A DNA stretch of 60,575 nt from Salinibacter altiplanensis (lineage in GTDB: Bacteria > Bacteroidota > Rhodothermia > Rhodothermales > Salinibacteraceae): assembly GCF_002894645.1 (NCBI RefSeq), contig NZ_NCQY01000011.1:66949-127523 (forward strand), given 5' to 3'. Positions 30,636 through 40,248 of the stretch are shown here, one piece after another. The notes below the pieces were generated by a model. That model ran no database searches. It saw only the letters and a list, made by a program, of their open reading frames with translations, and had not been told where the DNA came from. A program made the position numbers and the translations under genes. Numbering within the stretch: position 1 is the stretch's first letter; every line of letters begins with the position of its first letter.

Positions 30636-30788
30636 GAGGGGGCCGGGACGGTTTGGAAATAAGAGCGCGGTCGCAAAGTATGAACTGGGGACGGAGAGTG
30701 CGAGTCTCCGCTCCAGGTGAGCGGGTGTGTGGTAATTTCAAGGAACATTTCAGGAGGCCATAGGCGTTGGGTGAGTCCACATTTTGAT

Positions 30789-30873
30789 GCCCGAGTGGCG
30801 GAATTGGTAGACGCGCGTGATTCAGGGTCACGTGGCCTTTACGGCCGTGGAGGTTCGAGTCCTCTCTCGGGCA
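30789..30873 (+). tRNA. tRNA-Leu(CAG), intact copy at the left end of the integrated element
   Basis: Cloverleaf of 85 nt. The acceptor GCCCGAG pairs with CTCGGGC, the D-stem is GCG/CGC, and the anticodon arm is CGTGA-TTCAGGG-TCACG with anticodon CAG. The long class-II variable arm is TGGCCTTTACGGCCG, the T-arm is GGAGG-TTCGAGT-CCTCT, and the discriminator is A. CCA is not encoded. A strong terminator follows at 30890-30923. The 3' 68 nt recur at 40173-40240 with two differences, marking this gene as the integration site. Confidence 0.95.
30806..30873 (+). repeat. attL-like repeat (tRNA-Leu 3' part)
   Basis: 68 nt from GGTAGAC through the discriminator base. It is identical to 40173-40240 except for A/G in the anticodon stem and T/C in the variable arm. 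Tyrosine integrases commonly use such tRNA 3' ends as attachment cores. Confidence 0.8.
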
Positions 30874-30889
30874 CCCCTTCGGGCCGTTG

Positions 30890-30940: not shown

Positions 30941-30986
30941 CTGCACACAGCACTGTACACACCTCTGCTCACACTGCACACAGCGG
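30941..30986. repeat. Candidate integrase arm-type sites, left end
   Basis: CTGCACACAGC occurs twice, with ACTGTACACA between. The same words appear just inside the right end (40069-40104). Short repeated words near both ends and beside the integrase gene are what arm-binding sites look like; binding is inferred. Confidence 0.45.
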
Positions 30987-31383: not shown

Positions 31384-32232
31384 ATGATGCTGTTTTCTGA
31401 AAGACAGGGATATACCCCTCTACGTGATTCAGTTCAAATTGAAGAGTTAGATAAGGAATCAAGAGTAAAAATATGGAATTATTGGGTAACGAACTTCGTA
31501 AGAGAGACAGCGTCAGGAAGAGTTATAGGTGAACTGACTGATATAAAAGAGGAAATATGGAGAATATACTTTCGAAAACCTTTAGACGAAATACCTTACA
31601 ATGAAAAATTCGTATACAATATAAAGGAACAAATCATTACAGAATTGTGGTATGAAGTTATGGACTTGGTAGAGTTATTGTGTAACTGCGAAAATAAACA
31701 TGTAGGATTGAAAGGTGCATCGGAAACACACAATAGAATATTCGAAGAAGAAAAAATAGGATATAAAATAATAGACGGAAAGGTGACTCCAATAACTGAC
31801 GAGGTGGAAGTTGAGTCAGTAGATGAAGCCATAGAAAGATCCAAAAATTTTAGTGGTGTGAGAGAGCATATTAGAAAAGCAATAGCGAATCTCTCTGACA
31901 GGAAAGATCCTGACTATGCAAACTCGATAAAGGAATCTATAAGTGCAGTGGAGTCAATATCTCAAAAAATAACGGGCGACGAATCGGCTACCTTGGGAGA
32001 AGCATTAAATAACTTGGAGGATGAAATAGAGATACATGGTGCTCTTAAGAGCGGTTGGTTGAAACTTTATGGTTATACAAGCGATGCTGATGGAATCCGT
32101 CATGCAATGAGTGAAAAGTCGAATCTATCGATGACGGACGCAAAATATATGCTTGTTACATGTGCGGCATTTATTAACTACTTGATAAGTAAGTTGGAAG
32201 AGCGGGAAGTCGGAGTGGTCGCTGAAAACTAA
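31384..32232 (+). CDS. AbiJ-like abortive-infection protein (AbiJ N-terminal domain 4)
   Basis: Protein of 282 aa. The first 110 residues resemble the AbiJ_NTD4 domain, with the signature FSERQGYTPLRDSVQIEELD and then WNYWVTNFV. The C-terminal half (about 150-275) is helical and resembles the HEPN-like region found in AbiJ proteins, ending DAKYMLVTCAAFINYLISKL. AbiJ-type proteins protect bacterial populations from phage by abortive infection. Strongly AT-rich with codon use unlike the chromosome, a sign of recent transfer. Two adjacent ATG codons make the start M1 or M2. First gene inside the left end of the element. Confidence 0.7.
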   Translation: MMLFSERQGYTPLRDSVQIEELDKESRVKIWNYWVTNFVRETASGRVIGELTDIKEEIWRIYFRKPLDEIPYNEKFVYNIKEQIITELWYEVMDLVELLCNCENKHVGLKGASETHNRIFEEEKIGYKIIDGKVTPITDEVEVESVDEAIERSKNFSGVREHIRKAIANLSDRKDPDYANSIKESISAVESISQKITGDESATLGEALNNLEDEIEIHGALKSGWLKLYGYTSDADGIRHAMSEKSNLSMTDAKYMLVTCAAFINYLISKLEEREVGVVAEN

Positions 32233-32559: not shown

Positions 32560-33120
32560 TCAGTGTCCGAAGACCGATCTGCTCGACCTGCTGACCGACG
32601 CTCCATATTTTTCATCCGTCGTCGGAATGGTCGAGATCTGCTTAGTGGAGCTGTCTATGTCCTCACGATTCAGCAGGAAGGACATTTCCTGCGCGTCCAA
32701 TTGCGCCCCATTGTCGATCTTCTGCAGCAACTGTCCGAGCCGCCCGTTTACCGAAGCCTTTTCGGACTTCAGGCGCTCTATTCTGCACCTTTTCCGACAC
32801 TGAGCGAGGGGGTTCGTCTCGTCCGAAAGCTCCCCCCTGCACTCCCGAATCTCCTTCTCTATAGACAGCACAGCCGGGTGCTTGAAGTCCTCGACGAGTT
32901 CATCAGCCGCGTCAACGGCGGGCGTCGTGGCCGTCTTTTTGGGATGCAGGGTTCGGATCGTTTCGGCCCTTGTCTTCGGCCCTGAAACGCCCCGCACATC
33001 AGCGAACTCTCGGACGGACGGGAGTTCGTCGCTGTTGTAGTGATCTTCGAGATAGGTTTGAGCCTCCCGAGCATCGACGAGGAAGGTGTCCTGTCTGCCG
33101 AGCTTCAACTGTAAGTTCAT
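32560..33120 (-). CDS. Element protein of unknown function
   Basis: Protein of 186 aa, not recognised. The N-terminal third contains FLVDAREAQTYLEDHYNSDELPSVREFADVRG in short pieces, which could be a small DNA-binding fold. Residues 80-150 are charged and helical with coiled-coil character. The ATG at 33118-33120 is chosen over an upstream start at 33165. Last gene of a minus-strand series with the two small genes upstream (189 nt gap). Confidence 0.5.
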   Translation of the reverse strand: MNLQLKLGRQDTFLVDAREAQTYLEDHYNSDELPSVREFADVRGVSGPKTRAETIRTLHPKKTATTPAVDAADELVEDFKHPAVLSIEKEIRECRGELSDETNPLAQCRKRCRIERLKSEKASVNGRLGQLLQKIDNGAQLDAQEMSFLLNREDIDSSTKQISTIPTTDEKYGASVSRSSRSVFGH

Positions 33121-33308
33121 CGTATCGGGGAAGGTTTGGGGTTGAAAAGAGCAGATCGTGAACACCGAACCGAGCGGCCCCTCTGCAAGCCTCTCTTCGG
33201 GGACCTGTAGGGGGCCGGGTTCGGCGTTCTGAAGAGTGGGTCAGTATTGGCCGCCCTGACCCTTGGCGGGAAAGTTCAGCCGGAGCGTGACCGTGGTTGT
33301 TTGGTCTT

Positions 33309-33912: not shown

Positions 33913-35661
33913 ATGCGAATTGAAACAATCACCCCCCTCTCCGCATATAAAACACTGAACCAATGCTTTGACTACCGAACCGTGAAGCAGATGGCAACAA
34001 CCACCGCACGACGGCAGCGCGACGGCGAAAAGACCACCATCACGATCCCTGCTAACCGGGAAGTAGGACCCTCAGCACCCGACACGGCCCCCGCAACCGA
34101 GGACGGGCACCATGTTGCACGAGGGGTTGTAGGCAGGTCGGCAGTTGCAGGCGCTGCGGGCCGTTCTGAGAGCGAATGGCGCAGGAACGCAGAAAAACTT
34201 GCAAATGAGGACCCTCTCAGCGCCACTGAAGCCGGGTCGGTCATCCCGAGTACCCGCCGAATTGGAAGCTCCGATGAACTGAGGTCGAGGCTATTTGAAG
34301 AGTATCCGACACTGAAGGGGCACATTGGGCACCGGACGTTCATGGCGTACCTGCTCTTCACTGCGCAGCGTGACGATCGGGGACGCCCTCTCCTGCACTG
34401 CGAGACCGTCGTGCGCTGTTACGGCGTCAAGGATCGGCGCGGAGCACGAGTGTCGGCAGAGCGGCTGTTGGAGCTATTCAAACGGGACGTGCTCTCCGGT
34501 TTTCAGTGGAGCGGCTACCACCCCAAGAAAGAGCGGTGCCGAATCGCTCTCTCCGTGCCCGTCAAGTCGGAGATCAAGTCACGGCTGAACAGAGAGCTTA
34601 AGATGCGCCCCTCGTCAATCGGCAACTACGTGAACCTCATCACGGGCCGGAAGATCGATGCGAAGTACATCACGAACGTCCGGAAAGAGGCGCAGGCAGA
34701 GGTGCAGGGCATGGACGAACCGTGCTCCGAGTCGAAGCGGTGGGCGGAGTACATGAACAGCCGTCCCGCCGATCTCTACACCCGCGATGCGCAGCGCAAT
34801 CTTGCTGATGCCTGGGAGAAGGTTGAGGAACTTCCGGAGGGATCGCAGGACGGGGCACGCCGCCACTTGCAGGCGTTAGAAACGCAGCCGAAGCCAATCT
34901 ACAAGTACAACGATACCACGTGTCGGATCACCGCTACAACCTCCCTGCAAACGATCAACTCTACCCTGCGGGTTGCTCTCGTGGGCGACGTGTGGGTAAC
35001 GTACGACCTTTCGAGCGCCCAACTTGCTATCGCATCCGTCGATTGGGGGGCAGACGGGATTGCAGAGTTCCTCCTCGACGGTGGCGACGTGTGGGACCTT
35101 TTCGCGGAGGAGACCGGACTCCCATTAAAGTACAAACCCGTCTTCAAAAAAGGGCTGTACTCGACGTGCTACGGAGCGAACCCCGAGAACATCCGATTCA
35201 AGCACATGGCCGACCGTGCCGAAGAGAAAGGTTTGGAGTACGATCCGGACGAAGAGGGCGAGCGGATTCTGAGTGTCCCGTTCTTGGAGGAGTTAATCGA
35301 CGCTCGAAAGCGGAAATGGTGTGAGATTGAAGCGGAAGGTGGAGCGGTCGATTGCTTCGGGCGGCACATGGATCTCGGAGAATTGCAACGGGAGCACGGG
35401 AAGACGGAAAACGGAGCGATTCGGACCGTACTTGCCAACCTGAATCAGTCGAAGGAGATGGATCTACTGTCTCCGGCCCTTGATCTCGCAATCGAGGAGG
35501 AGGAAAACAGCCGTGCCGCATTTCAGATTGCCCTCTACGAATACGACGGCTTCTCCGTCAAGTATCACTACGCGAAGGAGCACCACCACAAACGGATCAT
35601 GCGGGCGGTCAACCGGAAGTGCCGACGGGAAGGGTATCCTACGGAGTTGGAAGTGGAGTGA
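33913..35661 (+). CDS. Divergent family A DNA polymerase-like protein (element replicase candidate)
   Basis: Protein of 582 aa. The C-terminal 230 residues carry the ordered palm and fingers motifs of family A polymerases. Motif A is YDLSSAQLAIASV with D365. Motif B is KKGLYSTCYG (K412 to Y420-G421, same spacing as K-x7-YG). An R504-x-V-L-A-N-L-N-Q512-S-x3-D517 stretch parallels the R...N...QGxAAD region. Motif C is YEYDGF with D545. The protein ends YPTELEVE, like the PolA terminus. There is no 3'-5' or 5'-3' exonuclease domain. Residues 1-110 are low-complexity and probably disordered; residues 115-330 are an unrecognised helical region. The ATG at 33991 (556 aa) is an alternative start. 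T7-type RNA polymerase is the main rival assignment. Confidence 0.65.
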   Translation: MRIETITPLSAYKTLNQCFDYRTVKQMATTTARRQRDGEKTTITIPANREVGPSAPDTAPATEDGHHVARGVVGRSAVAGAAGRSESEWRRNAEKLANEDPLSATEAGSVIPSTRRIGSSDELRSRLFEEYPTLKGHIGHRTFMAYLLFTAQRDDRGRPLLHCETVVRCYGVKDRRGARVSAERLLELFKRDVLSGFQWSGYHPKKERCRIALSVPVKSEIKSRLNRELKMRPSSIGNYVNLITGRKIDAKYITNVRKEAQAEVQGMDEPCSESKRWAEYMNSRPADLYTRDAQRNLADAWEKVEELPEGSQDGARRHLQALETQPKPIYKYNDTTCRITATTSLQTINSTLRVALVGDVWVTYDLSSAQLAIASVDWGADGIAEFLLDGGDVWDLFAEETGLPLKYKPVFKKGLYSTCYGANPENIRFKHMADRAEEKGLEYDPDEEGERILSVPFLEELIDARKRKWCEIEAEGGAVDCFGRHMDLGELQREHGKTENGAIRTVLANLNQSKEMDLLSPALDLAIEEEENSRAAFQIALYEYDGFSVKYHYAKEHHHKRIMRAVNRKCRREGYPTELEVE

Positions 35662-35918: not shown

Positions 35919-36839
35919 ATGTCTATGACTGCGAACTCCGCTTCGGAATCCAACGGTATGAAGGATAGCGAGGGAGGTCTTGTTGATTTGAATTTTGAAG
36001 TTTCAGATGTACTTGGTTTGAAGGGTCCTGCTGAAGCCCTCGTTGAGAAGATCGCAGATGGCATTGGTCACCTCTATGAGCCTATACATCGAGAGCGTAT
36101 GGCAGTGGCTCGCGTTGAAGAAAAGAAATTAGAAGCTCGGGGAATAGATGAGATTGCACAACTCGCAGAAAAGGAAATTGGAATTAGCAAGAGAAGAGCC
36201 AAGAAGCTAGCAGGATCTATGTTGGCTGAGAGGAAGATAAAAAAGGAAAATAGGGATGATGTAATTGAGAGATCTCTTGAGATGCTCGAAGATAATTCAA
36301 GCCCTGAAGAAATTGACGACAGTTGGCTTTTTGAGTTCTTTGACCACGTGGGTAGTGTGACAAGCGATGAAATGAAGCATGCTTGGTCAAGGGTGTTGTC
36401 CGGAGAGGCAAATAGACCCGGTTCATTTTCGAAACGTACGCTCCATACCCTTTCCACGATGTCCAAGGGTGATGCAGAAATATTTAGGAGGGCGTGCAAA
36501 TATGTTGCGTCGGTAGGCGAAGACTATCAACCTATAATAACAGATATAACATTAGATATATACACTAATCTTTCGTACGACATGTTGTCACATATAGACT
36601 CTATAGGGTTAGTAAATTACGACAGAGGTGGATTTAGATCATTTTACATTATAGGGGAAGACGGAAAAGTAGTTTTCGAATACGACGGAAGAGCGAAAGT
36701 TTACGAAGAAGAAAAATTACCTGTAGGAAATGCACTATTCACGAAGACGGGTACTGAGCTGTTTGAGATAGTAGAAAGAAATCACGTAGAAGGGTTCTAT
36801 AAGCATGCTACAGAGTATATAGATAAAAAGGTAGAATAG
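35919..36839 (+). CDS. DUF2806-domain protein
   Basis: Protein of 306 aa. The first 110 residues are helical and charged, with a coiled-coil-like EEKKLEARGIDEIAQLAEKE segment. The centre matches DUF2806: SSPEEIDDSWLFEFFDHVGSV, then MKHAWSRVLSGEANRPGSFS and TMSKGDAEIFRRACKYV. The C-terminal third is an alpha/beta region with FYIIGEDGKVVFEYDG. Function unknown; members are often found in accessory or defence-rich regions. AT-rich, like the AbiJ-like gene, and foreign in base composition to the chromosome. Confidence 0.72.
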   Translation: MSMTANSASESNGMKDSEGGLVDLNFEVSDVLGLKGPAEALVEKIADGIGHLYEPIHRERMAVARVEEKKLEARGIDEIAQLAEKEIGISKRRAKKLAGSMLAERKIKKENRDDVIERSLEMLEDNSSPEEIDDSWLFEFFDHVGSVTSDEMKHAWSRVLSGEANRPGSFSKRTLHTLSTMSKGDAEIFRRACKYVASVGEDYQPIITDITLDIYTNLSYDMLSHIDSIGLVNYDRGGFRSFYIIGEDGKVVFEYDGRAKVYEEEKLPVGNALFTKTGTELFEIVERNHVEGFYKHATEYIDKKVE

Positions 36840-37308
36840 AAGTTCACAAGGGTGGTTGAATGTTAGGGATATGGCCCAAGTGATATTAATGTTTTCCAAG
36901 GCTCAGATCTGTTTGGTTCGTGTTTGGAGTAGCCGTAGCCGCTCCGAGAAGTATTTGATATGCTGCGAAGCAGACATGCCGGGAACCCCGTCTTGAAGCC
37001 GTTTAGCTTACCTTCGATATACGGGTGAACGGCAGGGGGGTGAGAAAAACGGTATCTTTCGATTTGATACTGAAGAGCAGCGCGGAAGTGTCAAGGTTGA
37101 CGGCACTGAGTCAACGTCTGCAGGGATGGAGCCACTTTACTTGCCCGGTTTCTACCGCTTAGAAATGAGAGTCAGGGGGTCTCCGTTGTGAATGCCGTGG
37201 CTCCGCTATATAATGGCACAACGACAGATCGCGATGCGGAGGCTTTCTCCGTTATATTCAACCCTCTGCTTGAAAGTCAAGGGACTATCCGGTTCGGAGT
37301 CTTCCACA
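36840..37308. other. Intergenic region with repeat copy 1
   Basis: 470 nt between two element genes. The open frame from 37192 is not supported before the ATG at 37309. It holds the first copy of a degenerate direct repeat (36997-37080). Confidence 0.5.
36997..37080 (+). repeat. Degenerate direct repeat, copy 1
   Basis: About 84 nt starting AGCCGTTTAGCTTACC and containing GTGAACGGCA and AACGGTATC. By eye it is roughly three-quarters identical to 38197-38276, about 1.2 kb away in the same direction. Confidence 0.65.
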
Positions 37309-37905
37309 ATGGCTGACGAAACCGATTCACCACAAAGAAGGCTACTCATGGACCGTATCATGGATTGGGCCGGAGGCGCTTTCTTCACCCTTCTTGCAAG
37401 TCTCCCGTTCTTCTACTTCACGAATGAGTCACCCGATCTGACCTATGAAGTTTTCCCGCCGTCTTCCTTTGTAAGTGAGCAGACGGAACGAACGATCTAC
37501 ACAGTGCGCGCTGCAAATCAAGGGGATGCGGAAGCAGAAGATGTGCGAATGGTGGTCGATTTCCCAAACGGAGTGAAGGTGCAGGACAGTAAGGTTAGCA
37601 CTTCATCCGGGGCGATGACCTACACCTTCGAAGATACGTCTGCTCTGAGCATCCGTGAGTACGCCTTTCCACTGCTGAACCCCGGTGAGAGCGCCAAATT
37701 CTCGTTCCTGCTTTCAGGCTCCCCTTCTCCGCAAGCTGTGGAAGTGGACGTTCGGGGTCGTGGTGTTGTCGGTCAAGAGAGAGGGGATGAAAAAGAATCT
37801 GACGCGTGGGGAAACGTAATAGCGAGTGTGTTAGGGACATTGGTCACCGTGTTGGCAACGTTGAGGATCATTTCGCACTTACGGAAAAGAGATTCGAAAG
37901 CGTAG
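37309..37905 (+). CDS. Membrane-anchored beta-domain protein of the element
   Basis: Protein of 198 aa, not recognised by name. Residues 20-42 form a first membrane helix (FFTLLASLPFFYF). An extracytoplasmic domain of about 110 residues follows, with CARDB-like beta strands: TVRAANQGDAEAEDVRMVV, then PLLNPGESAKFSFLLSG. A second helix near the C-terminus (NVIASVLGTLVTVLATLRII) is followed by a basic tail. The ATG at 37309 is chosen; the upstream frame contains no signal. It is flanked by the two copies of a direct repeat. Confidence 0.55.
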   Translation: MADETDSPQRRLLMDRIMDWAGGAFFTLLASLPFFYFTNESPDLTYEVFPPSSFVSEQTERTIYTVRAANQGDAEAEDVRMVVDFPNGVKVQDSKVSTSSGAMTYTFEDTSALSIREYAFPLLNPGESAKFSFLLSGSPSPQAVEVDVRGRGVVGQERGDEKESDAWGNVIASVLGTLVTVLATLRIISHLRKRDSKA

Positions 37906-38925: not shown

Positions 38926-40035
38926 TCAAGCGAACGCGGCCTCTACCTCCGATTGCAGCCGTTTGCCCGCCATGTGCACGTATTTCATCGAGGTGCTGAT
39001 GTCCGAATGGCGCATCGCTGATTTGATCGCTACGGTAGAAACTCCGTTCTCCGCAAGGCGCGTAGCGAAGCCGTGCCGGGTCGAGTGCAGAGTCAGTTCC
39101 GGGCGGACCTCTGCTTCGTCTCTCCACTCGGCGAACTTGCGGCTCACGTGCTCCCTGAACCGCCGTGCAGACCTCTCTTCGGGATCACAACCGGGCGAAC
39201 GGAAAACGAAGGTGTCCCCGTTCTCTCCGTCGTAGAGACGCCGCAGCATCTCCTGTGCAGGTTTGATAAGGGGGACAGTGCTCTCGTCTCCGTTCTTCTG
39301 CCGGTAGATCGTCAGTTGCTCTCGTTCGAGATCGACGTGTGACCAACGGAGACGTGCAAGTTCGCTTCCACGGAGACCCGTGAAGTAAGCGAACCGGAGC
39401 GCAGGAACGATCCACACGATCTCTCGGGAACGGCAACCGCCATTCAGCCGCTTCTCTCGATAGTCCTTAACGGCTGCACGGCAGATTGAGCGGAGTTCGT
39501 CCGGGCGGAGCGCCTTCGGTAGCTTATCGCCTGTCTTTGGCTTCTCTACGGCGTCTATAACGCTCTCATGCCCGCACCAACGGAGGACGGCCCCGACGTG
39601 CCGGTAACGGTTCGCGCCGGTTGTGGCCTTCACGTCGCTGTCGTAGACGAACGAGCGAACGTCACTCGATTGGAGATCGTCGAGCGGCGTTTCCTCGCCG
39701 ACGCGACGCCGGAAGAGCCGCCACTGTTTGCGGTAGTTGCGGATTGTGGATTCGGTGCGTCCCTGCTCCTTCTTCGCCTCACAGAACGCCTCAATCGCTT
39801 CACCGACCGTAGACGGTCCCGTCTTCTCTTCGTCGCTGTCGGAGTCCTCTGCGAACGGGTCATCGGTCCACGGGTCGAACTGCCCGTTATCGTAGTCCCG
39901 CTCGAAGTCTGTGAGCCGTCTCCGCGCTTCCTTGCGGTTCGATGTGCGGAGGGAGAACCGTTTCCGCTTCGGAGATCGGTTGGAGTCGTAGAACTGAGCG
40001 TAATAGTTGCCGGAGCGGTCGAAGATGCTTGCCAT
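38926..40035 (-). CDS. int: Tyrosine recombinase (phage/ICE-type integrase)
   Basis: Protein of 369 aa. An N-terminal strand-rich region (SIFDRSGNYYAQFYD) resembles integrase arm-binding domains. A SAM-like core-binding domain covers about residues 90-170 (VGEAIEAFCEAKKEQGRTESTIRNYRKQW). The catalytic domain follows, with the first Arg in TGLRGSELARLRW, HSTRHGFATRL (H-x-x-R-H), the histidine in MRHSDISTS, and the nucleophile Tyr in MKYVH. It would integrate and excise the element at tRNA-Leu. The ATG at 40035 is chosen because the upstream frame to 40104 only translates the repeated attachment-region DNA. Confidence 0.93.
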   Translation of the reverse strand: MASIFDRSGNYYAQFYDSNRSPKRKRFSLRTSNRKEARRRLTDFERDYDNGQFDPWTDDPFAEDSDSDEEKTGPSTVGEAIEAFCEAKKEQGRTESTIRNYRKQWRLFRRRVGEETPLDDLQSSDVRSFVYDSDVKATTGANRYRHVGAVLRWCGHESVIDAVEKPKTGDKLPKALRPDELRSICRAAVKDYREKRLNGGCRSREIVWIVPALRFAYFTGLRGSELARLRWSHVDLEREQLTIYRQKNGDESTVPLIKPAQEMLRRLYDGENGDTFVFRSPGCDPEERSARRFREHVSRKFAEWRDEAEVRPELTLHSTRHGFATRLAENGVSTVAIKSAMRHSDISTSMKYVHMAGKRLQSEVEAAFA

Positions 40036-40068
40036 AACCAAATCGGGGGTTATGGCGTCGAAAAGCCC

Positions 40069-40106
40069 ACTGCACACAGCAACTGCACACGCGACTGTAC
40101 ACAATG
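40069..40106. repeat. Candidate integrase arm-type sites, right end
   Basis: ACTGCACACAGC (40069-40080), ACTGCACAC (40082-40090) and ACTGTACACA (40094-40103) lie between the integrase start and the tRNA-like copy. They mirror the words at 30941-30986. Confidence 0.45.
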
Positions 40107-40240
40107 CCCGAGTGGCGGAGGCCGGAAGGTCCGTTAATCCGCCGCTCAGCGGCGCTGAGCAAGGATTCGGACGGTAGACGCGCGTGGTTCAGGGTCACGT
40201 GGCCTCTACGGCCGTGGAGGTTCGAGTCCTCTCTCGGGCA
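40106..40240 (+). tRNA. tRNA-Leu(CAG)-like sequence interrupted in the D-loop by a 50-nt hairpin
   Basis: The first 14 nt (GCCCGAGTGGCGGA) and last 68 nt match the intact tRNA-Leu at 30789-30873, but 53 nt (40120-40172) replace the 3-nt D-loop piece ATT. The insert folds on itself: GCTCAGC-GGC-GCTGAGC inside, with AATCC/GGATT and TCCG/CGGA outside. All other tRNA arms are preserved: acceptor GCCCGAG/CTCGGGC, anticodon loop TTCAGGG, variable arm and T-arm. A terminator follows at 40249-40279. It may be a dead remnant, or a transcribed tRNA with an extended D-arm. Confidence 0.6.
40173..40240 (+). repeat. attR-like repeat (tRNA-Leu 3' part)
   Basis: Second copy of the 68-nt block, 138 nt beyond the integrase start codon. 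See the left copy at 30806-30873. Confidence 0.8.
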
Positions 40241-40248
40241 CTGCACGC

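Follow-up and report, generated by a model that had tools for sequence, protein, structure and literature searches.

A predicted, highly divergent family A DNA polymerase on a tRNA-integrated element of Salinibacter altiplanensis, with relatives on plasmids and in phages

Introduction

The stretch of Salinibacter altiplanensis DNA analysed here (60,575 nucleotides, referred to as the window) contains a gene whose product was described in an initial annotation as a divergent family A polymerase-like protein carried by a small tRNA-integrated element. The locus raises the question of whether this protein is a DNA polymerase and, if so, which DNA it serves. No published description of the polymerase family was found in the literature searched, which largely excludes subscription papers and bioRxiv preprints. 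The genome paper of Salinibacter ruber describes islands flanked by tRNA genes as well as recombinases encoded on plasmids; its main text does not contain the words 'DNA polymerase' (PMC6060240).

Results

Boundaries and contents of the window element

The proposed tRNA-integrated element of about 9 kb was confirmed by a pair of 69-nt direct repeats, 97% identical and 9,367 bp apart, which bound it and belong to two copies of tRNA-Leu(CAG). The features of the element are as follows.

30788-30876, + strand: native tRNA-Leu(CAG), of which 30806-30874 is attL (ARAGORN; 69-nt repeat)
30941-30973, no strand: two copies of a 21-nt repeat at the left inner end, possible integrase arm sites (repeat family D4)
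31384-32232, + strand: cargo, AbiJ N-terminal domain 4 protein, candidate defence system PDC-S32 (PF18863 E 2.8e-26; PADLOC E 1.9e-103)
32560-33165, - strand: ORF of 201 aa, no significant family (Pfam, PHROGs, NCBIfam, PADLOC)
33913-35661, + strand: predicted divergent family A DNA polymerase gene, 582 aa (ORF plus stop; full-length relatives exist)
35919-36839, + strand: cargo, DUF2806/TIGR03899-like protein (PF10987 E 5.1e-25; TIGR03899 E 1.5e-21, below cut-off)
37192-37905, + strand: ORF of 237 aa, weak DUF11 match (PF01345 E 7.7e-4, below cut-off)
38926-40104, - strand: tyrosine integrase, 392 aa (PF00589 E 2.5e-29; phrog_1 integrase E 2e-55)
40083-40103, no strand: third copy of the arm-like 21-nt repeat, right inner end (repeat family D4)
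40173-40241, + strand: attR, 3' part of tRNA-Leu (69-nt direct repeat)

The 21-nt copies were 76-86% identical to their reference. GC content per kilobase was 43-61% inside the element compared with 60-75% in nearly all flanking kilobases (one had 55%). Judged by its upstream DNA, the left tRNA-Leu copy is the native one: of 13 genomes of the genus, its own included, 11 contain a match to the 411 bp upstream of it, nearly full length in four. In the right copy (window 40106-40241), 53 nt of the D-loop region stand in place of the 3 found in the native tRNA; ARAGORN nonetheless calls a tRNA at 40153-40241.

No clean empty site was found, the flanks of the window element being unlike the 3 kb past the tRNA at six other sites. 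In those six genomes the 3 kb had only short hairpin or displaced stretches in common. As the sequence past the tRNA varies between genomes, the tRNA-Leu(CAG) site is likely to be an insertion hotspot. No iterons were found around the polymerase gene, and a promoter and terminator scan gave one promoter-like and three terminator-like sites, fewer than in shuffled sequences.

PICI, PICMI and other tRNA islands are small integrated elements with an integrase and accessory cargo. The window element differs from PICI/PICMI-type satellites in that no terminase, capsid or packaging family was detected in the window ORFs scanned. Capsid and transfer families, which the initial annotation had reported as absent, were indeed missing from the six larger element ORFs scanned besides the polymerase, as were terminase and relaxase families. 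The element may be a satellite, as was also suggested, with nothing specific found in support.

A family A polymerase core

By sequence the protein was almost invisible to curated libraries. Searches of Pfam, PHROGs and NCBIfam at E<=1 were empty, and at E<=10 Pfam likewise returned nothing, PF00476 (DNA_pol_A; gathering cut-off 34.3 bits) included. Among 15 family members the best PF00476 E value was 0.0023, reached by one of the 15, and in all ten family proteins of a second scan the Pfam DNA_pol_A match was below cut-off; the phage homologue L089 scored 22.9 bits, IITB6 12.7 and UTEX 3055 11. A match to a different family was looked for in the three libraries and none was found, relaxase families included. 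Matches to SpoIIE-type phosphatases in a phmmer search of the PDB (E >= 0.89) were dismissed as chance.

A polymerase palm was looked for in the predicted structure, and a family A core was found there. The AlphaFold model, built from 14 family sequences, had a mean pLDDT of 77.5 and a pTM of 0.71, residues to ~110 being mostly of low confidence. Residues 255-582 of the model aligned with Bst Pol I (4dsj) at Z 20.6 over 300 residues (rmsd 3.9, 13% identity); the Z scores obtained with Pol theta, Klenow and Pol nu were about 18-20. Foldseek searches with the core gave best E values of 9.9e-10 in the PDB and 1.3e-8 among viral models; the 50 matches listed in the Z-scored fold search were all family A DNA polymerases, more distant families, such as the T7-like RNA polymerases or relaxases named as alternatives in the initial annotation, being possible beyond them. 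The core and its motifs are located as follows.

34675-35658, + strand: polymerase core (thumb, palm, fingers), residues 255-582 (Z 20.6 to 4dsj)
35005-35028, + strand: motif A, D365-A372 (DLSSAQLA), with catalytic Asp D365 and steric-gate position Q370 (family alignment)
35146-35175, + strand: motif B, K412...Y416...Y420-G421, O-helix (family alignment, PolA register)
35545-35550, + strand: motif C, D545-G546, H-D-G in most family members (family alignment)

Comparison of profiles was consistent with the fold. A 24-member core profile aligned near end-to-end with a profile of 21 PolA proteins from related genomes (E 1.2e-6, probability 82%), while controls gave E values of 0.85 (reversed) and 0.75-0.98 (five column-shuffled profiles). 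A narrower 15-member core profile reached E 2.3e-5, and with the whole-protein family profile, uncut to the core, nothing aligned to PolA.

The motifs originally proposed, A (D365), B (K412, Y420-G421) and C (D545), all fell in register with host PolA: D365 corresponds to the motif A Asp, K412/Y416/Y420-G421 to motif B of the O-helix and D545 to the motif C Asp, with R338 as the Arg ahead of motif A and Q512 as the Gln ahead of motif C. We take the equivalents in E. coli Pol I to be D705, K758/F762/Y766-G767, D882, R668 and Q849 respectively. Y330, R338, D365 and E515 were invariant in 24/24 aligned members, and the D545 position was D in all 23 rows that reach that column. K412 was K in 23/24, position 420 Y or F in 24/24, G421 conserved in 23/24, and a Gly followed the motif C Asp in 21/23 rows. 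A further stretch, proposed as R504...N...Q512...D517, survived in part: Q512 was Q in 22/24, but R504 was variable and neither the N (about 508-509) nor D517 was conserved. The invariant residue of this stretch is E515, a Glu three residues past Q512, which had been absent from the proposed motifs. The steric-gate position, Glu in E. coli Pol I (E710), was Q or H in 24/24 members, never E, and Q in the window polymerase; such a substitution might relax sugar selection.

The window protein therefore carries a family A DNA polymerase core, the predicted fold of which is well supported, and from the conservation of the motifs we infer that it has polymerase activity.

The N-terminal domain

The region ahead of the core includes one globular domain.

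34222-34710, + strand: N-terminal globular domain, residues 104-266 (model mean pLDDT 81)

Modelled alone, this domain had a mean pLDDT of 81, and residues about 138-214 were predicted to run helix-strand-helix-helix-strand, which is the winged-helix order. Foldseek returned no match for the model at E<=0.001. With VIA-align the top Z was only 6.6, to a proteasome subunit, and many of the weak matches were winged-helix proteins, with Z 4-5.3 for RepE and MarR-type proteins; RepE 2z9o aligned weakly at Z 5.3 (rmsd 3.8, 94 residues aligned). Because the fold matches are weak, a DNA-binding role of the winged-helix-like part is only suspected. The domain could be aligned in full-length relatives, including phage homologue L089, and the N-terminal family profile gave no match to PolA. 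The statement that the N-terminus matches nothing thus holds for the sequence libraries, PDB sequences and PolA profile searched, and the reported lack of an exonuclease domain was borne out, no such family being detected in the protein.

Distribution of the family

At E<=1e-3 the window polymerase matched 13 of 148 related genomes, its own included and several with two rows; one of these, G103 (E 9e-4), was discarded afterwards and kept out of the alignments, as the match covered residues 14-112 only and contained an internal TAG. L015 and L017, being further fragments of the L010 and L011 genes, were counted together with them. A scan of 394 genomes of the phylum, with three candidates scored per genome, returned seven genomes, none of them new, and one new locus, G010:C2, while a single scan of genome contigs yielded only two loci of one MAG, both already found. 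Outside these genomes, tblastn matched a protein encoded on a plasmid of Deinococcus peraridilitoris (E 5e-26) and Synechococcus elongatus plasmids (E about 0.1). The family HMM (Z=1000) scored two phage contigs at 8.6e-88 (L089) and 8.7e-72 (L088), Polaromonas pW9NP1 at 4.5e-16, the Synechococcus proteins at 4.2e-16 (3055), 1e-15 (IITB6) and 3.5e-13 (IITB7), and an Erwinia phage at 7.2e-4. Several candidates were rejected: Synechocystis B12 (H15), which the family profile did not score, Stenotrophomonas plasmid pSM76 (E 0.3), a chance match on the opposite strand from its rep gene, and phage tblastn matches to the window polymerase, also chance (E >= 6). On this evidence the family is unannotated and occurs in Salinibacter and its order, on plasmids and in two environmental phage contigs.

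G010:C2 is a contig of 39,810 bp. It was taken to be circular, and so a free form, because the polymerase ORF continues across its ends. Its first 20 kb showed partial likeness to Salinibacter ruber plasmids (nine records, all Salinibacter). Four family queries matched no Salinibacter plasmid in PLSDB, which includes such records and possibly omits near ones. Besides ParA and an initiator of RPA type, the plasmid-like contig G007:C173 encodes two members of the family. Two of its proteins (L040:4390-5118 and L048:1824-2513) matched the PolB-type 3'-5' exonuclease PF10108 at E 6.3e-5, just below cut-off, and 8.2e-19; these are possibly a separate proofreader.

On the 24-kb plasmids of Synechococcus UTEX 3055 and IITB6 the polymerase adjoins ParA/ParB, CRISPR-Cas genes are also present, and the PLSDB gene table, itself incomplete, contains no Rep. 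The IITB7 plasmid pIITB7_1 carries the polymerase together with CyRepA1 and DISARM. In Polaromonas, pW9NP1 (RepA_C) and pH8NP1 (RepA as annotated) have the polymerase with RepA and ParA, and on pH8NP1 the gene lies about 5 kb from repA.

In both IMG/VR phage contigs the polymerase stands beside structural-type genes, the structural reading being made from translations. A related protein is encoded directly past the polymerase in both (L089:7942-8628, L088:1251-1961), and that of L089 matched DUF3223 at E 6.7e-16. The window polymerase and the L089 protein, as single queries against viral contigs, found no further relative. A hypothetical protein of Erwinia jumbo phage pEa_SNUABM_32 (L094:2182-3759) has the R, D, K, HDG pattern on a very long branch and may be a distant family member.

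Related tRNA-delimited elements

Nine loci with a tRNA or tmRNA near the polymerase, the window included, were searched for a direct repeat that duplicates a portion of the tRNA, and six gave one. The element sizes below are start-to-start distances from the repeat coordinates.

Window element: 9,367 bp, tRNA-Leu(CAG), repeat of 69 nt, 97%
G010:C1 element: 14,727 bp, tRNA-Leu(CAA), repeat of 56 nt, 87.5%
G016 element: 6,509 bp, tRNA-Lys, repeat of 53 nt, 100%
G038 element: 6,071 bp, tRNA-Leu(TAA), repeat of 43 nt, 95%
G047 element: 19,687 bp, tRNA-Arg, repeat of 52 nt, 100%
G075 element: 19,044 bp, tRNA-Cys, repeat of 45 nt, 100%

At the G003 tmRNA locus a search of 80 kb gave only a 17-nt match (E 0.009), and no att repeats were found at G006 and G032 (L039, L042), both at contig ends. 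In a six-frame profile search each of the six spans contained one polymerase and one full-length tyrosine integrase; the G010:C1 element has an additional integrase-like fragment of 140 aa. The remaining content differs between elements and, as read from family matches, mostly belongs to anti-phage defence families: PDC-S32 in the window, an Mrr-type restriction enzyme in G016, PARIS AriAB in G038 (E 3.8e-118) and, for G047 and G075, whose 25 scanned ORFs were pooled, type I restriction-modification and pAgo/SIR2 proteins. The G010:C1 element carries a C5 cytosine methylase, a lone methylase being weak evidence of defence. A protein of 1146 aa in the same element (L037:4487-7927) has the domains of DNA polymerase III alpha, split by an intein that contains a LAGLIDADG endonuclease.

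Gene neighbourhoods, host PolA and phylogeny

ORFs within 9 kb of the polymerase were clustered by BLAST across 22 loci. The polymerase cluster was represented in all 22, tyrosine recombinase in 10, ParA in seven and every other cluster in at most three. The prediction that homologues would lie beside tyrosine integrases was thus realised in 10 of 22 loci with recombinases of one cluster, eight of them in the order to which the window host belongs (window included) and two on cyanobacterial plasmids. Recombinases are also present at G007:C173 and G010:C2 (in the latter, 25 of 40 families were listed, and a known Rep may be among the others), outside that cluster or distance. ParA lay near the polymerase in seven of nine plasmid or plasmid-like loci, pDEIPE01 and G015:C3 being the exceptions, and the two groups overlap, both genes occurring on two cyanobacterial plasmids. 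This co-occurrence suggests that genes for integration or partition accompany the polymerase as it moves.

All 10 polymerase-family host genomes among the 41 searched for PolA have their own PolA elsewhere (39/41 overall); G047, G075 and G103 were left out of this search. In the family tree, members from one genus appeared in several places, which fits horizontal movement; 10 of its 21 inner branches were drawn open.

Discussion

The observations are probably best explained by an active, very divergent family A polymerase with a winged-helix-like N-terminus, dedicated to replicating a mobile element that integrates in tRNA genes. It was taken as a replicase because polymerase and integrase are constant, the cargo is variable and ParA lies near most of the plasmid copies; the polymerase is probably the element's private copying enzyme. 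Which DNA is copied, and how synthesis starts, we infer as follows. The tyrosine integrase would cut the 9.37-kb element out of tRNA-Leu in circular form, and the polymerase would copy this circle, perhaps guided by its N-terminal domain and perhaps assisted by host helicase, SSB and primase. The copied circle could then stay as a plasmid or re-integrate. Relatives beside ParA would serve free plasmids, and those of the two phage contigs would serve the phage genome.

If so, a new clade of family A polymerases, missed by the curated libraries searched here, would provide a common replication module for integrative elements, plasmids and phages, its genes mostly annotated 'hypothetical protein'. 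The polymerase would also be a marker with which to search for small mobile defence islands, the copying and spread of which are little known, and the system allows a direct test of whether a family A polymerase can be an element's own replicase or initiator.

A combined initiator, primer-maker and replicase, its N-terminus binding the origin and synthesis proceeding with little or no primer, perhaps from ribonucleotides admitted by the Gln/His gate, is a lesser possibility that deserves consideration. It would agree with the conservation of the N-terminal domain into phage L089, with the weak winged-helix matches, which include RepE and a Rep-DNA complex, with the Q/H gate throughout the alignment, with the two Synechococcus 24-kb plasmids lacking a Rep in PLSDB's incomplete gene table, and with the analogy to the primer-independent PolB of pipolins (PMC7385651). 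Against it, the N-terminal fold matches are below significance, no iterons accompany the window gene, and other polymerase-bearing plasmids have their own Rep. The replicase reading, too, has evidence against it. Known initiator types accompany the polymerase on pW9NP1 (RepA_C), pH8NP1 (RepA), G007:C173 (RPA) and pIITB7_1 (CyRepA1), and when the REP regions predicted on the 13 Polaromonas plasmids were cloned, all of them replicated (PMC6015842). The polymerase is therefore more likely a dedicated elongating enzyme than the sole initiator, though it may be the latter on the Synechococcus 24-kb plasmids. The replication of the cloned regions, with repA of pH8NP1 about 5 kb from the polymerase gene, also means that the polymerase may be non-essential on Polaromonas plasmids. 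Further points against are the lack of iterons around the window gene, the absence of Salinibacter plasmids from the PLSDB matches and the failure of the whole-protein profile to align with PolA. Somewhat more doubtful is the wider proposal of an undescribed class of self-replicating, defence-carrying elements, in which the new family A clade would recognise the origin and also initiate synthesis unaided, its selection of sugars relaxed by the Q/H gate, as a family A counterpart of the pipolins' primer-independent PolB common to integrative elements, plasmids and phages.

The initial annotation had also considered a polymerase used for defence or repair. A cargo polymerase for repair, lesion bypass or defence, dispensable for replication of the element, would suit the frequency of defence genes among the neighbours, the lack of a proofreading domain, the presence of Y-family polymerase genes on plasmids of the same genus and the replication of the cloned Polaromonas REP regions. 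We consider it unlikely, because cargo changes between the elements while polymerase and integrase stay: apart from the integrase, no gene but the polymerase was detected in all six delimited elements. Moreover, PADLOC gave no match for the polymerase itself, which occurs in phage contigs as well. Very improbable is a relic of a phage polymerase that is now inactive or domesticated. Similarity of sequence to PolA is very low and phages carry relatives, but the catalytic Asp residues are retained throughout the deep family and the open frames in matched genomes are long.

The window polymerase shares with Pol I Klenow, Pol theta and Pol nu the predicted palm, fingers and thumb fold, and with family A polymerases the motif A and C Asp, the motif B Lys and Tyr/Phe-Gly, and the flanking Arg and Gln in register. 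Identity to family A in structural alignments is 12-16%, and the family departs from it in having Q/H for the steric-gate Glu, a Gly past the motif C Asp and the invariant E515. Unlike cellular Pol I, the window polymerase has no exonuclease-like domain, and a separate N-terminal domain is present instead.

The polymerase of pipolins, piPolB, can initiate synthesis independently of a primer. Pipolins encode their own polymerase and a tyrosine recombinase, integrate at tRNA att sites (tRNA-Leu in E. coli), carry variable cargo and are occasionally plasmids (PMC7385651). Tyrosine recombinase and tRNA att repeats are features they have in common with the window element and its five relatives. The window element is nevertheless not a pipolin, since piPolB belongs to family B, whereas the present family belongs to family A and uses several different tRNA targets. 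In their mode of working pipolins come closest, and the window family is most likely their functional family A counterpart.

CyRepA and CyRepX are cyanobacterial plasmid replication proteins with DUF3854/helicase-type domains (PMC10079941, PMC10899382). They are of helicase type, unlike the family A core described here, and pIITB7_1 encodes both a CyRepA1-family protein and a member of the window family. Among the Synechococcus elongatus plasmids L019, L050 and L049, two are similar and differ in CRISPR type (I-MYXAN versus I-E) and the third carries DISARM; the defence cargo of these plasmids is apparently interchangeable.
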